This document shows, piece by piece, positions 52,623 to 57,257 of a stretch of 64,000 nt of DNA. Under the pieces are notes generated by a model, which did not search any database, was not told the DNA's origin, and saw only the letters and a list, made by a program, of their open reading frames with translations. How positions within the stretch are numbered: position 1 is the first letter of the stretch; each line of letters opens with the position of its first letter. The position numbers were made by a program, and so were the translations under genes. Source of the DNA: Cryphonectria parasitica EP155 (Eukaryota > Ascomycota > Sordariomycetes > Diaporthales > Cryphonectriaceae); the NCBI RefSeq assembly GCF_011745365.1, contig NW_024468913.1:2480001-2544000 (forward strand), read 5' to 3'.

Positions 52623-55600
52623 ATGCCACAAGCTGCCGTGCCCTTCTCAGCTCTCGGTGTTCCACCTGCTGCGGTGGTGCCCTCCATGTCGGACGATGTT
52701 CCTGCGGACAGTGCCAACGTTGACCCTGCGGTGTCTTCCATGGATCTTGAGAGCCATCGACCTGCCTTGATGAGACGCGGCAGGCCCGAAGACAATCTTT
52801 CTGGGCTAGATATCCAGCAACTCTCTGGGAAAAGAGCTTTGAGCGGCGGCGATATCTCGAGAAAGAGGCAGAAAATCACACTGGGTGAAGACCATGTCAG
52901 CCCAAAGGATGCAGCAGCGCCCATTTCCAGACCTCTGGACGGCAGCAACAGAGATCACTCGGCTTCATCTGCATCACTCGAGGTACTTGGACATGCTCTC
53001 TATCCTCTCTCCCTTTTGTTTTGCAGGCGGGAACTGCAGATACTATGATGTGTTCATTCACTGACTCCAGTCATTTGCACACAGCCTCTTCGGAAGCACA
53101 CCGGTATTGCAACCCAGCTCAACCCGCTCTACGAGCATCTACAAGGACTAAAGACCATGATTGAAAGTGATGACCGGACAACAACAGATCCGGGGTCAGC
53201 TGCAGGACGCAGCAACAGTCTGAACAACTTGACGACAACTTCAAAGTCCAAGAATAACGAGCCATACCATCGTAAAGCCGGTGAAGGGGAGAATATTCGG
53301 GATCAAATCGAGAAAGTGAGTTTTCCCAACCTGTTAAAAGGAAACGGAAAAGGAAAAGAGAAAAATAGAGCAAAAGTAAAGAAAGAAAAGAAGAAGAAAA
53401 TCCACGCTTGTTCATCTACTAATGTCAACGCTGCGATCGATGCAGGTCTTCAATCACTACAAAGACCAGGATCAAAGTATAATGAACCCCGATCTAGCCA
53501 CTTCGTCAAAGCCAGATGAAATGTCCCAGAACAACGGCAAGTCGCGTGATTCCCGAGGTCACACCATGAGGCAGATGAATGCCGCGAGCCATTGGGGAAA
53601 TGACCAGGACGATACATCGGTCCAGCGACGACTCGTGCGGGCACGAAACTCATACCCAAACATCTACTCCAGGAATCTAGACGGAAACCCATATCGAGTG
53701 GAAGGTAAGGTGATGCTCTGATCACAGTTGCCCGAGACTCCATCTTGTGCCTGTTGTTTAACCCTCCTTGTTCTTGATGTGCTGACCAGTATATGAGATG
53801 TGTTGGGCGGACTCATGCTCCCTGGACACTACGAAATGACGAAGGCTGTAGGCACTGGCATGCCTTGGGTCTGTCCCATTCGATCCTGCCCAAGTCATTT
53901 CAAGAGAAAGACCACTCTGGGCAAGCATTGGAAGGTTTGTCACAATCATCCCAGCGGCGCAGCGTATCATTGCCCTGACATATAGCAGAAGAAACACCGG
54001 AAATGCCTCCTGAACGACAACAACGATGGGACCTTTTCTATCAAAGGACAGTACCGCCCGAAAACCCCCAGAAAGGAAAATGCCCTCGTTATTAGTCAGG
54101 AACCATCGGATCCGTTCGATGCCCCAGTAGCTCCTCCTCTTGAATTGTCTCGCAGCTTGCAGCCCAACACGGCTAATTCACAGTGTAATGTTGATGTTCC
54201 GAGAGAAGCTGAGTTTGGTAAGGAGCCTGCTGCTGAAGCCCCACCAAATGCATCCGTAACTGCAGATGCCGAATCTGTTACCTACTTCAGACCGGGACTT
54301 GTCATGATCTCAGATGATCTTGAGATGGCCACGAACTTTCGGGCATACAATACATGGCCAGGTGCGACCCAATCACCACTCAAGAAGCATTTGACTTCCT
54401 TCGTAAGCCGTCGTCTCGGCTAACCATTTGATCTGGCAGATCACGCAGGAAATCCGGTCAAGACTGCTGGAGCGCTTCTGCCTGCCAACTACAGACTCTG
54501 TGGGTATCCTGATTTCGAATGGATCTGTCCAGTTCGATCCTGCAGATGCGCAACGAAGTCTATCGAGGCCCTTTCCAACCATTTCGAGGCAAGTCATTTT
54601 TTGGTGCTTCATTATTCCTGGCATTTCTTCTGTACGTGCCTGTGAATATTAATGTCAACCAGCGTCAACATTCGTTTGCTCTATTTAACGACAATAGGGA
54701 TGGCACATTCACTGAGATCGGGCACCACACTGGAGGTCGCGCACCCATTATCAAGTCCAAGAATCCAATCGACCCAATCATTCCAATGAAGGAGCCAAAT
54801 GTCGATCCTGGAGACATCAGGCTCCAACATGACTTTGCCGCAAGTCGAGCGTTATGGTGCACAGATCAACTCAAGCGGTTACTCGCGAACAAGCCTCTAG
54901 AGAAAGTGAGAACGGTCGACGAAGTCATGGCCGAAGGAGGTAACGCGGAAGACCTGAAAATCATGGAAAACGCGCCACAATCTATCCAACGATCGCTGCT
55001 TTCCACCCCGACTCCTGAGCCGTCCCTGCCCGACTCCGAGGTTTCTTCCAATGCCTCTTCGGAGGACATGGATGATTCGGAGAAGGTGTATGACAAAGAA
55101 GCGGTCAATGGAGCAGAAGCAACGCACGAGAGAGGAGCTCCCAACCCTGCAAAGCAGGAGAGCAAGACTTCGGATATGACGACTACAGCAGTGAAAGAGA
55201 ACTGGGCGACTATTGAGGCTCTCTTCACCGGAAAGAAATTCCCGCCACCCCAGTCAGACCCGATGCGAACACTCCTATCTCTTCCCCGCGTCCGAGAGCT
55301 TGAATTCCCCACAAGTCAGATGTTCTCCGTGGCCTGGCCCAAGGACGTGTCTCTCCTTATCGTACAGCTTGTTGGTGAGGAATCGCCGGAACCATGCAAC
55401 AGATGTGCCAAGGGTTCAGGTATTTTCAAAGGCTGCGTCATGGTGAGCGATAATGTAGCCCAAGCTACCCAACAGGGCAGTTGTACTTGCGTCAATTGTG
55501 CATGGAAGAGCTGTAACCTTGGCGTGTGTGACCTCCGGCTGAAGCTGCGCGAGCGCGAGCGCGAGCGCGAGCAAGCGGCAGACGAGCAGACTTCCTCGCC

Positions 55601-56168
55601 GCTTTCAGACTCGCAACCTTCTATACGGACTCAAGACAAGGATGGTCACTCCGACGTCGTGGAGAACGGCTCAGAAGATCGCCTTCGTTCGTTGCGTGCT
55701 CGTCGGTCTGAGCGGCTTCTGACCGAAAAACAGACGAAGAATGATGAGAAGTCGAGGCCACAGCCTACATCTCATGATGACGTCCCGCCTGCGACAGCTC
55801 CAACTCAGCCACGCGCAGTCGCCCCGGAGGAGCACAGTGTGGAAGTGCAGGAGACTGGAGTGGGAGCTTCAGCAGCTGCGTCCAACATGGCTAACGGGTC
55901 CAGGTCCGTACAGGTTGATGAGCGCTTTACCTTTGGGACTCATATCATATCACCGGGCGCATCTCTTCAGTTAGATGTGGATTCTGCAAGCCTTCGCACC
56001 TGCACTCTGGCCGTAGGAAAGGTGACTGTCAAGGTGCACGGGGAGCCGGCCTTCCGAACGGGAATTCAGGGCATGTTCAAGATCATGCCTGGAAGAAGTG
56101 GGGAGGTTGTCAACACCTCTGGAATGGATGCCATACTGCATGTGTATACTATGAGGCTGGGTCGATAA
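52623..56168 (+). CDS. Duplicated C2H2-like module protein with DUF3716 domain
   Basis: Seven exons (52623-52982, 53085-53315, 53446-53704, 53798-53934, 53989-54361, 54440-54588, 54663-56168) join in phase to 1004 aa. Two copies of one module are present. Copy 1 (about residues 275-375) has a GGLMLPGHY lead, C309-x4-C314-x12-H327-x4-H332, then LLNDNNDGTF. Copy 2 (about 455-545) has GALLPANY, C483-x4-C488-x12-H501-x4-H506, then LFNDNRDGTF. An intron interrupts both copies at the same point, between the two histidines. The second uses a GC donor (GCAAGT). Residues about 746-800 carry CNRCAKGSGIFKGC and CTCVNCAWKSC, which match the fungal DUF3716 cysteine pattern. A Ser/Arg-rich linker and a beta-rich end follow. 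A nuclear or chromatin role is plausible, but not shown. The start could be further upstream. Confidence 0.72.
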
Positions 56169-56517
56169 GCATAAGGTGTGACATTACCACTTCACATAGG
56201 AAATAATATTGCCATGTTCAAGTCTATTTAGAAAGACAGCATTGAGATCTTGAACACGTAACTGGTCCAGATTGGTCTCAGCACAGCATTGTTTCCACAT
56301 GCCAGACAGACTTAATAGGTCTGTGTGACCATGGTTCAAAGCCCTTGTGACTTTCCCATGTGGCTCTTTGTCACAAGCATGAAGTGTCGTGGGCAGGCTC
56401 TCCATGCCTGATCCACCAATGGCTGGCATCAATCAGCTGCTGCGGACGGCCGCTGCAGGGAGCTCACTTCATCACCCCTGTTCTTTATGAGAAAGTCACC
56501 CCAACAAAGCAACACAA
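56169..56517. other. Spacer upstream of the tRNA gene
   Basis: No gene is seen in these roughly 350 bp. Confidence 0.5.
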
Positions 56518-56669
56518 ACCGGTATGGTGCAGTGGTGAGTGTTCATGGTGTCTTCTCTCGACACAATCCATTACCTCTGAGCTAACATAATCAAAACCAG
56601 GTTTAGCATATTGGATTTTCAGGGCTGCGAAAACTTCCAAAGACCGGAGTTCGAACCTCCGTGCCGGTG
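56518..56669 (+). tRNA. tRNA-Glu(UUC): tRNA-Glu (anticodon UUC) with a D-loop insert and a normal anticodon-loop intron
   Basis: The parts fold as a complete tRNA. The acceptor ACCGGTA (56518-56524) pairs with TGCCGGT (56662-56668), followed by discriminator G. The D-stem GTGC/GCAT, anticodon stem TTGGA/TCCAA and T-stem CGGAG/CTCCG all pair; the T-loop is TTCGAAC. The anticodon is TTC at 56618-56620. A 13-nt intron (56622-56634) lies in the usual place after position 37 and contains GAAAA, able to pair with TTTTC of the anticodon loop as in ordinary tRNA introns. The A box (TGGTGCAGTGG) and B box (GTTCGAACC) are intact. The odd part is 56535-56600: 66 nt between the two conserved D-loop guanines, starting GTGAGT, with GCTAAC 15 nt before the end, ending CCAG. 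Taking it out gives an ordinary D-loop, AGTG then GTTTA. Confidence 0.8.
56535..56600 (+). other. Spliceosomal-type intron inside the tRNA D-loop
   Basis: 66 nt with GTGAGT donor, GCTAAC branch (56581-56586) and CCAG acceptor, the same signals and size as protein-gene introns in this window. It lies between G18 and G19 of the tRNA. Inside it, GTGTC...GACAC forms a 5-bp stem with a 7-nt loop. The ends can slide by one base because a G repeats at both junctions. Confidence 0.6.
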
Positions 56670-56672
56670 AAC

Positions 56673-56678
56673 TTTTTT
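56673..56678 (+). terminator. Pol III terminator
   Basis: A run of six T begins four bases after the tRNA end, the usual stop signal for RNA polymerase III. Confidence 0.75.
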
Positions 56679-57092
56679 GTTTCTTTCTTTTTGCACCTTT
56701 CTGTTCTGACTGCTGAAGCTTGCGAACTGAGTTTGTGACTATGTACTTTTTGAACTTCCCTGGAATCTAATAGAGCATACTTCTGAACGCCCAGCTGGCC
56801 TGATTAGTCTAAAACCTCCCTCAGTTTTTAGATAATCAGGGCTGCATATGTCCCTCTCATATGCAATATTTTGAACCAGGGGGACCATACTCTTCAGGTG
56901 TTGACAGCGTCAATTCTGGTCTTCTGTGCATATTCCCTCTTGATACTCATGTGGAGGGGCATGAGTGTTGTTGAAAGTTGGTATTGAGAAAGAAAAGAAT
57001 ACCTTGTCTTCCTAATTTGCAAATGGGGACTATGATGAGAAGTCCTGCGCACGTCTCTACGCACTGATGCAATATTTAGAAGGGTGCTTACT

Positions 57093-57257
57093 TATGTGAG
57101 GGCAAAAGGCTTGGATTGAAGTGTGCTGAAGAGAAAAGAGAAAAGAAGAGAAACGCCACGAGGCCAGCTATCTGAGGCTATCAACAGGTCTGGCTGTTGG
57201 CTGGCTGGAGGGGCCGTGCACGGCCCTGGGCCAGTGACTCACTGGCCCTCGCACATT
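57093..57257. repeat. Diverged direct repeat, copy 1
   Basis: It shares TATGTGAGGGCAAAA, the GAAAGAG-rich stretch, CCACGAG, CTGAGGC and ATCAACAGG...CTGGCTG...GGCTGGCTGGA with a copy 480 bp downstream. This copy has an extra GC-rich insert holding the perfect 16-bp palindrome GGGCCGTGCACGGCCC (57211-57226). Confidence 0.8.

Follow-up and report, generated by a model that had tools for sequence, protein, structure and literature searches.

A putative spliceosomal intron in the D-loop of a nuclear tRNA-Glu(UUC) gene of Cryphonectria parasitica, and similar inserts in tRNA-Pro and tRNA-Tyr genes

A tRNA-Glu gene with two inserts

The window analysed here is the 64,000-nucleotide stretch from 2480001 to 2544000 of contig C5 (4,337,670 bases) in the 43.8 Mb genome of Cryphonectria parasitica EP155. 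At positions 56518–56669 of the window lies a tRNA-Glu(UUC) gene that is split by two inserts, one of 66 nt in the D-loop and one of 13 nt at position 37/38. A protein recorded for strain EP155 is 100% identical to the window's product over 197 residues, and the Chk1 encoded in the window has its nearest named relatives in Discula and Cytospora, both members of the Diaporthales. The larger insert and its counterparts in tRNA-Pro and tRNA-Tyr genes of the same genome are the subject of this report. The parts of the gene are listed below in window coordinates, with the basis of each assignment in brackets. The A and B boxes were read against their general consensus sequences, and published sources are cited by PMC number.

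56518–56534, forward strand: tRNA-Glu exon 1, with the 5′ strand of the acceptor stem, T8-G9, the 5′ strand of the D stem and A14-G18 (ARAGORN on the spliced sequence, 21 of 21 pairs)
56525–56535, forward strand: A box, TGGTGCAGTGG (letters)
56535–56600, forward strand: 66-nt GT–AG insert in the D-loop between G18 and G19, proposed spliceosomal intron (letters, shuffles, four further tRNA genes)
56535–56540, forward strand: GTGAGT, resembling a 5′ splice site (letters)
56581–56586, forward strand: GCTAAC, resembling a branch site, its A (56585) 15 nt before the end of the insert (letters; fungal RCTRAY, PMC5832005)
56598–56600, forward strand: CAG, putative 3′ splice site (letters)
56601–56621, forward strand: tRNA exon 2, G19 to A37, anticodon TTC (ARAGORN on the spliced sequence)
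56622–56634, forward strand: canonical 13-nt tRNA intron at 37/38, following A37, GGGCTGCGAAAAC (ARAGORN, letters)
56635–56669, forward strand: tRNA exon 3, with position 38, the 3′ strand of the anticodon stem, the variable loop, the T arm, the 3′ strand of the acceptor stem and the discriminator G73 (ARAGORN, pair count)
56649–56657, forward strand: B box, GTTCGAACC (letters)
56673–56678, forward strand: T6 run resembling a terminator, starting 4 nt after the discriminator (letters)

Without its two inserts the gene forms 21 of 21 cloverleaf pairs (19 Watson–Crick, two G–U, none broken). ARAGORN returned tRNA-Glu(ttc) once the 66-nt insert was cut out, a spurious Leu(cag) with this insert left in place, and nothing when only the 13-nt intron was cut out; on the whole window it reported 0 genes and missed the tRNA-Glu gene. 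Rfam gave 0 matches in the window at the gathering score, its tRNA model covering only the 3′ part of the gene at 23.5 bits (cut-off 29), and the fold of the unspliced gene has a z of −1.02. The boundary of the 66-nt insert is ambiguous by four positions, with repeated bases at both ends, and one of the choices gives GT..AG. The DNA of the gene has no second match in the genome.

The original prediction, made from the letters of the window, had described an insert at 56535–56600 running from GTGAGT through GCTAAC to CCAG with the branch-site A 15 nt before its end, and had placed it between the two guanines of the D-loop. The letters confirm the former and the spliced cloverleaf the latter, the guanines being G18 and G19. 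Its claim that the stems pair only after removal of the insert holds for the acceptor and D stems, but the anticodon and T stems pair regardless. Removal of the 66 nt does give a tRNA-Glu in ARAGORN, as had been claimed, but the second insert, the canonical intron, had been overlooked. The A and B boxes and the T6 run were found as predicted, and the A box is intact because the first base of the insert is a G. The first G of the insert likewise keeps the A box readable in the interrupted tRNA-Pro genes described below and, with one mismatch at the last base, in the tRNA-Tyr genes. The tRNA-Glu gene has the anatomy of a functional tRNA gene: a complete cloverleaf, both boxes, the T6 run and an ARAGORN identity of Glu(ttc). 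About 350 nt upstream of it, on the same strand, lies a single-exon open reading frame (ORF) of 549 amino acids with a DUF3716 domain (54519–56168).

Interrupted tRNA-Pro and tRNA-Tyr genes and their empty sites

In this genome, D-loop inserts split at least five tRNA genes: the tRNA-Glu gene, two of the four exact tRNA-Pro(AGG) places and two of the three exact tRNA-Tyr places. Searches with branch-site and acceptor signals, akin to the search for GT...CTAAC...AG inserts that the original prediction had proposed, yielded both Pro(AGG) genes and one of the Tyr genes; the other Tyr gene came from an exon-only pattern. Their inserts are as follows (a slash marks the exon boundary; distances are from the branch-site-like A to the end of the insert).

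tRNA-Pro(AGG), locus L134: AGTG/GTAAGT..CTAAC..CTCAG/GTATG, 62 nt, distance 12 nt
tRNA-Pro(AGG), locus L135: AGTG/GTTAGT..CTAAC..CTCAG/GTATG, 58 nt, distance 12 nt, at the same place as in L134
tRNA-Tyr, locus L163: CAGT/GTCAGT..ACTAAC..CAACAG/TGG, 65 nt, distance 12 nt
tRNA-Tyr, inside locus L063: CAGT/GTGAGT..ACTAAT..AATAG/TGG, 63 nt, distance 11 nt

Empty sites are found in uninterrupted paralogs. The uninterrupted tRNA-Pro genes L133 and L136 are continuous through AGTGGTATG. Counting the canonical intron, removal of the insert leaves L134 identical to L133 at 88 of 89 positions and L135 identical to it at 84 of 89. The empty tRNA-Tyr site in L046 reads CAGTTGG, exactly as restored by the GT–AG boundary of both L163 and L063. 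The GT–AG boundaries agree with the empty sites of the paralogs, allowing for the latitude that repeated bases give, which is four positions in Glu, five and four in the two Pro genes and none in Tyr L163.

Uninterrupted L133 and interrupted L134 have the same 19-nt canonical intron, and the variable loop carries a T in both interrupted Pro genes and a C in both uninterrupted ones; gene conversion among tRNA-Pro genes may account for both features. The interrupted tRNA-Tyr gene of L063 belongs to a cluster on one strand (L063–L065, G000:C1:3268311-3271364), in which it is followed by three tRNA-Glu(CUC) genes with differing canonical introns.

Splice signals of the inserts

All five inserts begin with GT and end with AG at the exon boundary. 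Their donors share the form GTNAGT and their acceptors the form YAG (four CAG, one TAG), and the branch-site-like word is CTAAC in four of them and CTAAT in L063, the full RCTRAY being present in three of the five. Three donors also fit GTRWGT. The fungal branch-site consensus is RCTRAY, located 6–36 nt before the acceptor, and in the introns of fungal U3, a small nucleolar RNA (snoRNA), the donor is GTRWGT in 88 of 136 cases with nearly all others one position off, RCTRAC is found in 129 of 138, and the mean branch distance is 15 nt (PMC5832005). The complete signal set, defined as GTNAGT, CTRAY and AG at an allowed boundary, arose once in 100,000 mononucleotide shuffles of the L135 insert and in 0 of 100,000 for each of the other four. 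For comparison, three introns in protein genes of the window, located with the help of homologous proteins and with boundaries set by eye, show the donors GTGAGC, GTATGT and GTTCGT, the acceptor CAG, lengths of 66–116 nt and a CTRAY 13–17 nt before the end. Introns called de novo from coding scores were mostly noise and were left aside.

The hairpin with a 5-bp stem and a 7-nt loop to which the original prediction had drawn attention is real (56548–56564), but in folding the complete Glu insert does not surpass its shuffles, 95 of 200 being as good. The same holds for the inserts of L134 (97 of 200), L135 (92), L163 (59) and L063 (110).

Two other kinds of element were considered and rejected. 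An introner-like element is not indicated, as the Glu insert matches only itself at E ≤ 10 in a search that skips very common words, and there is no near-identical pair among the five inserts. The interiors of the Pro L135 and Tyr L163 inserts do align above most shuffles (11 of 500 reach the score), a likeness that we put down to their C/A-rich composition. As for a self-splicing group I or group II intron, Rfam gave no match in the window at the gathering score and no intron family at 56000–57200 up to E 5. A length of 58–66 nt is also too short for a self-splicing core.

Exon conservation and insert divergence

The interrupted tRNA-Tyr genes L163 and L063 are identical at 73 of 73 exon letters, the boundaries of their canonical introns being assumed to be the same. 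Their D-loop inserts align at 43 of 66 positions, which 104 of 1000 shuffles match, and agree at 12 of the first 13 letters; their canonical introns align at 14 of 40 positions, and in the two flanks 48 of 88 and 32 of 80 positions agree, with shuffle means of 43.5 and 33.2. Compared with the uninterrupted L046, 7 of the 73 exon letters differ, and one pair is changed on both sides and kept. Conversion from L046 cannot account for the shared exon letters in which both interrupted genes depart from it, and conversion within the pair is disfavoured because the insert that splits the exons would be expected to have been evened out too. Exons that stay identical while inserts, canonical introns and flanks differ are what one sees when introns are spliced out and selection maintains the gene. 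The paired inserts may reflect either one gain or two; in the latter case the exon identity would say less about selection, and the repeated gain at one site more about site preference.

The contrast recurs in the tRNA-Pro genes L134 and L135, which are equal at 85 of 89 positions, canonical intron included, and in their inserts at 42 of 64; taken whole, these inserts align above shuffles, only 2 of 500 reaching the score. Between the tRNA-Glu gene of the window and its uninterrupted counterpart L071, which differ throughout the tRNA body, 8 of 21 pairs are changed on both sides and one on one side, with none broken. Each interrupted Pro and Tyr gene has one non-standard pair in 21 (T–T, A–C), which is also present in an insert-free paralog. 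No interrupted gene has broken pairs beyond those of insert-free paralogs, and none qualifies as a pseudogene on this count.

Genome survey

The number of five is a lower bound, drawn from about 75 tRNA genes seen: 61 from the tRNA family search, six further Glu, two Pro and one Ser gene, and the five interrupted ones. Among the 61, no D-loop insert was noticed by eye. A scan for tRNA structure alone was applied to the retrieved loci, a non-random sample of the genome, and gave 62 distinct tRNA-like hits, comprising 56 genes with a normal D-loop, the five interrupted genes and a spurious pairing that lies upstream of an ordinary tRNA-Ser gene (L048). On reversed sequence the same scan gave 0 tRNA-like hits, with loci of less than 400 bases and eight overlapping loci left out.

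Pattern searches were set beside counts for the reversed pattern. A combination of branch site, acceptor and 3′ half-tRNA occurred at 7 places (31 reversed), three of which are tRNA genes, namely the Glu gene of the window and the two Pro(AGG) genes; three of the other four places were viewed with their flanks and one as matched text only. The A box followed by GTRNGT occurred at 54 places (123 reversed), and in the 51 that were read, judged by a B-box and acceptor test, only the window Glu gene and Pro L134 are tRNA genes. A second pattern with 19 places (53 reversed), judged by eye on at most 80 letters each, returned the three known genes and one new one, Tyr L163. Another pattern had 42 places (43 reversed), and no tRNA with a D-loop insert was recognised in the 24 that were read. 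The ten places of a further pattern (68 reversed) comprise three known genes, one place inside the Glu gene L064, one that is L080, four unread places and C1:4000609, which falls in an uninterrupted tRNA-Ser-like gene in L066. The Tyr gene inside L063 turned up with an exon-only pattern free of splice signals; this Tyr pattern has 7 places (2 reversed), three of them exact and all read, the other four, with three mismatches each, being unread. The Pro pattern has 159 places (136 reversed), including four exact ones, all read, and four with one mismatch that by eye are not tRNA genes; the Pro count covers the exact and one-mismatch places. A reversed control for patterns joining CTAAC with a donor (40 against 19 real) was judged unsuitable because CTAAC words differ in frequency between real and reversed DNA, and neither number was used.

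The tRNA-Ser-like gene in L066 (G000:C1:4000560-4000780, minus strand) is not listed by the tRNA family search, and the census is to that extent incomplete. Canonical anticodon-loop introns are very common in the tRNA genes of this genome, including some for Ala, Asp, Gln, Gly, Glu and Val (L010–L073). Three tRNA-Val(UAC) genes on different contigs (L027–L029) have a common 15-nt 5′ flank, with no difference between L027 and L028 and a similar sequence in L029. A dispersed repeat with the motif CTAACTATAGCATATCAGAAGAAGTAATCTC..AGAAAGTTCAAYTC occupies 16 of the 24 readable places of the 42-place pattern; the repeat family is probably a transposable element.

Discussion

The anatomy of the genes, the recurrence of the inserts, their empty sites, and the conserved exons beside differing inserts are established directly; by their sequence features we class the five inserts as spliceosomal introns, splicing being what we infer as the best reading. 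The 66-nt insert of the window is probably a spliceosomal intron of the U2 type, lodged in the D-loop of a nuclear tRNA-Glu(UUC) gene that RNA polymerase III (Pol III) would transcribe, one of at least five such genes. The spliceosomal reading had been put forward in the original prediction, and it gains support from the four further genes with GT–AG inserts in the D-loop, the empty-site paralogs, and the identity of exons beside differing inserts.

Several observations weigh against this interpretation. Uninterrupted genes exist for every isoacceptor concerned (Glu L071; Pro L133 and L136; Tyr L046); other intact tRNA-Glu(UUC) genes, together with decay of this one in relatives, had been named in advance as grounds for rejection, and with at least one uninterrupted gene present (L071) the window gene is not the only source of this tRNA and the objection stands in part. 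The donors GTTAGT and GTCAGT are one position off the fungal GTRWGT. In dinucleotide shuffles with the end letters kept fixed, the signal set recurs 11 (Glu), 36 (L134), 30 (L135) and 3 times (L163) per 20,000. The queries that led to Pro L134, Pro L135 and Tyr L163 required CTAAY and AG, so that among the signals of these three genes only the donor is independent. The search patterns themselves are unenriched relative to the reversed control (7 vs 31; 19 vs 53), and the identification therefore rests on tRNA structure. Common descent of the paired inserts is unproven, their interiors being matched by 598 of 1000 shuffles in Tyr and by 125 of 500 in Pro. T-runs lie close downstream of the Glu gene and Pro L134, and the first T4 run is found only at +40 in Pro L135 and at +21 in Tyr L163. 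Finally, according to a review, insertions in the D- and T-arms of eukaryotic tRNA genes mostly affect a single gene among many synonymous ones and are taken for marks of pseudogenes (PMC4090602).

The strongest competing account is that the five genes are inactive or dispensable copies, disrupted by intron-like insertions and tolerated by virtue of the uninterrupted genes. It is favoured by the presence of such genes for all three isoacceptors, by the report on D- and T-arm insertions just cited, and by the lack of a near terminator in Pro L135. However, decaying genes should not have preserved GT, CTAAY and AG at such spacing in five of five inserts while the other letters diverged (with search bias for three), the Glu gene has no broken pair, the Pro and Tyr genes have only the mismatch of an insert-free paralog, and the exons of the Tyr pair are identical although introns and flanks differ. 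We regard this account as improbable.

It has also been considered that the D-loop inserts are cut by the tRNA endonuclease through a bulge-helix-bulge (BHB) fold, as in archaea and Cyanidioschyzon. Nucleomorphs, Cyanidioschyzon and archaea do have tRNA introns in the D-loop (PMC4090602, PMC3978253), and one of the allowed boundaries of the Glu insert gives 4 of 4 central pairs, with G–U counted. The strict motif (3-nt bulge, 4-bp helix, 3-nt bulge) is nevertheless absent from four of four inserts (Glu, both Pro and Tyr L163), the best scores out of (4,3,3) being (4,0,2) for Glu, (3,2,2) or (2,2,3) for Pro L134 and (1,1,0) for Tyr L163; the test is a weak one, as canonical-intron controls fail it too. 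The inserts fold no better than shuffles, and the yeast endonuclease is reported to cut at 37/38 only (PMC4033280). Endonuclease removal of the D-loop inserts is unlikely, and the scheme as a whole carries very little weight with us. The notion that the loci are parts of RNA polymerase II (Pol II) transcripts, such as the 3′ untranslated region (UTR) of the DUF3716 gene at 54519–56168, with UTR introns and a tRNA shape that is a relic, can draw on the location of that ORF, which shares the strand of the tRNA-Glu gene and lies about 350 nt upstream of it, and on Pol II transcripts being the normal substrates of the spliceosome; it is hardly credible in view of the D-loop location of the insert in five genes at separate places, the identity of the Tyr pair inside the tRNA exons and not beyond, and the T-runs close behind Glu and Pro L134.

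If the inserts are spliceosomal introns, the path to a mature tRNA may be pictured as follows. Pol III would transcribe the whole tRNA-Glu gene, from the A and B boxes to the T-run, as its anatomy suggests. The spliceosome would then recognise GTGAGT, GCTAAC and CAG in the precursor, remove the insert and join G18 to G19, allowing the D-arm to fold and to dock on the T-loop. End processing and the tRNA endonuclease would come afterwards, endonuclease and ligase taking out the 13-nt canonical intron, and the outcome would be a normal 73-nt tRNA-Glu. Spliceosomal removal is placed before end processing and endonuclease because the D-arm presumably cannot form with the insert present; the tRNA endonuclease normally reads the folded tRNA body. 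As to origin, we speculate that the introns were probably gained at AGT/G when, on rare occasions, an excised intron was put back into RNA by reverse splicing, as has been proposed for U6.

Precedents exist, as the original prediction had stated for U6: introns are described for fungal U3 and U6 (PMC10484740, PMC5832005), and reverse splicing has been proposed as the source of the mRNA-type intron of Schizosaccharomyces pombe U6 small nuclear RNA (PMC10484740). That intron resembles the tRNA inserts in being of spliceosomal type in a small structured Pol III RNA. U6 differs in being a component of the spliceosome, which explains insertion into it; tRNA is not one. The only U6 match above the cut-off of 44 bits in the C. 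parasitica genome is 106 nt long for a model of 105 positions and hence has no intron; a second match, at 27 bits, falls short of the cut-off. Fungal U3 introns are likewise short GT–AG introns with an RCTRAY branch site in a small structured RNA; some genomes have one paralog with and another without the intron, and most Pezizomycotina surveyed have them (PMC5832005). U3, however, is a snoRNA and no tRNA, and no second splicing system is described for it.

Within tRNA genes the nearest comparison is with the canonical introns at 37/38, of which the Glu gene also carries one (13 nt), as do many tRNA genes here; the 66-nt insert differs in lying at 18/19 and in having splice signals. Non-canonical introns of nucleomorphs, Cyanidioschyzon and archaea are alike in interrupting the D-arm, sometimes together with a second intron (PMC4090602, PMC3978253). 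In Cyanidioschyzon and archaea these are BHB introns, and in Guillardia they measure 3–24 nt, with a mechanism given as unknown (PMC4090602), whereas the C. parasitica inserts are 58–66 nt long, unstructured and GT–AG. Group I introns also interrupt tRNA genes (PMC4033280).

On the accepted view, tRNA introns either are excised by the tRNA endonuclease or, as happens in bacteria and organelles, splice themselves out. Full-text literature searches, in their result listings, returned no report of spliceosomal introns in nuclear tRNA genes, although print may hold one. According to a 2017 survey, no small structured RNAs other than U3 and U6 are known to carry introns frequently (PMC5832005). Genes of the present kind would tend to be overlooked by standard annotation because the non-canonical intron step of tRNAscan-SE 2.0 is described for archaeal tRNAs (PMC8450103) and ARAGORN misses the window gene.

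These results lead us to lean, with less assurance than for the Glu insert, towards a broader view in which the spliceosome would be a regular tRNA-processing machine in C. parasitica, and perhaps in its order, the Diaporthales. The precursors of tRNA-Glu, tRNA-Pro and tRNA-Tyr would be handled by two unrelated splicing systems, first the spliceosome and then endonuclease and ligase, the D-loop would be a recurrent landing site for new spliceosomal introns, and the inserts would form a further mechanistic class of tRNA introns, one missed by gene finders for eukaryotic tRNAs. If this is true, the supply of tRNA would be coupled to the spliceosome, Pol III transcripts would be open to the spliceosome more widely, and the D-loops of tRNA genes would offer short, countable target sites for testing reverse splicing as a source of new introns.
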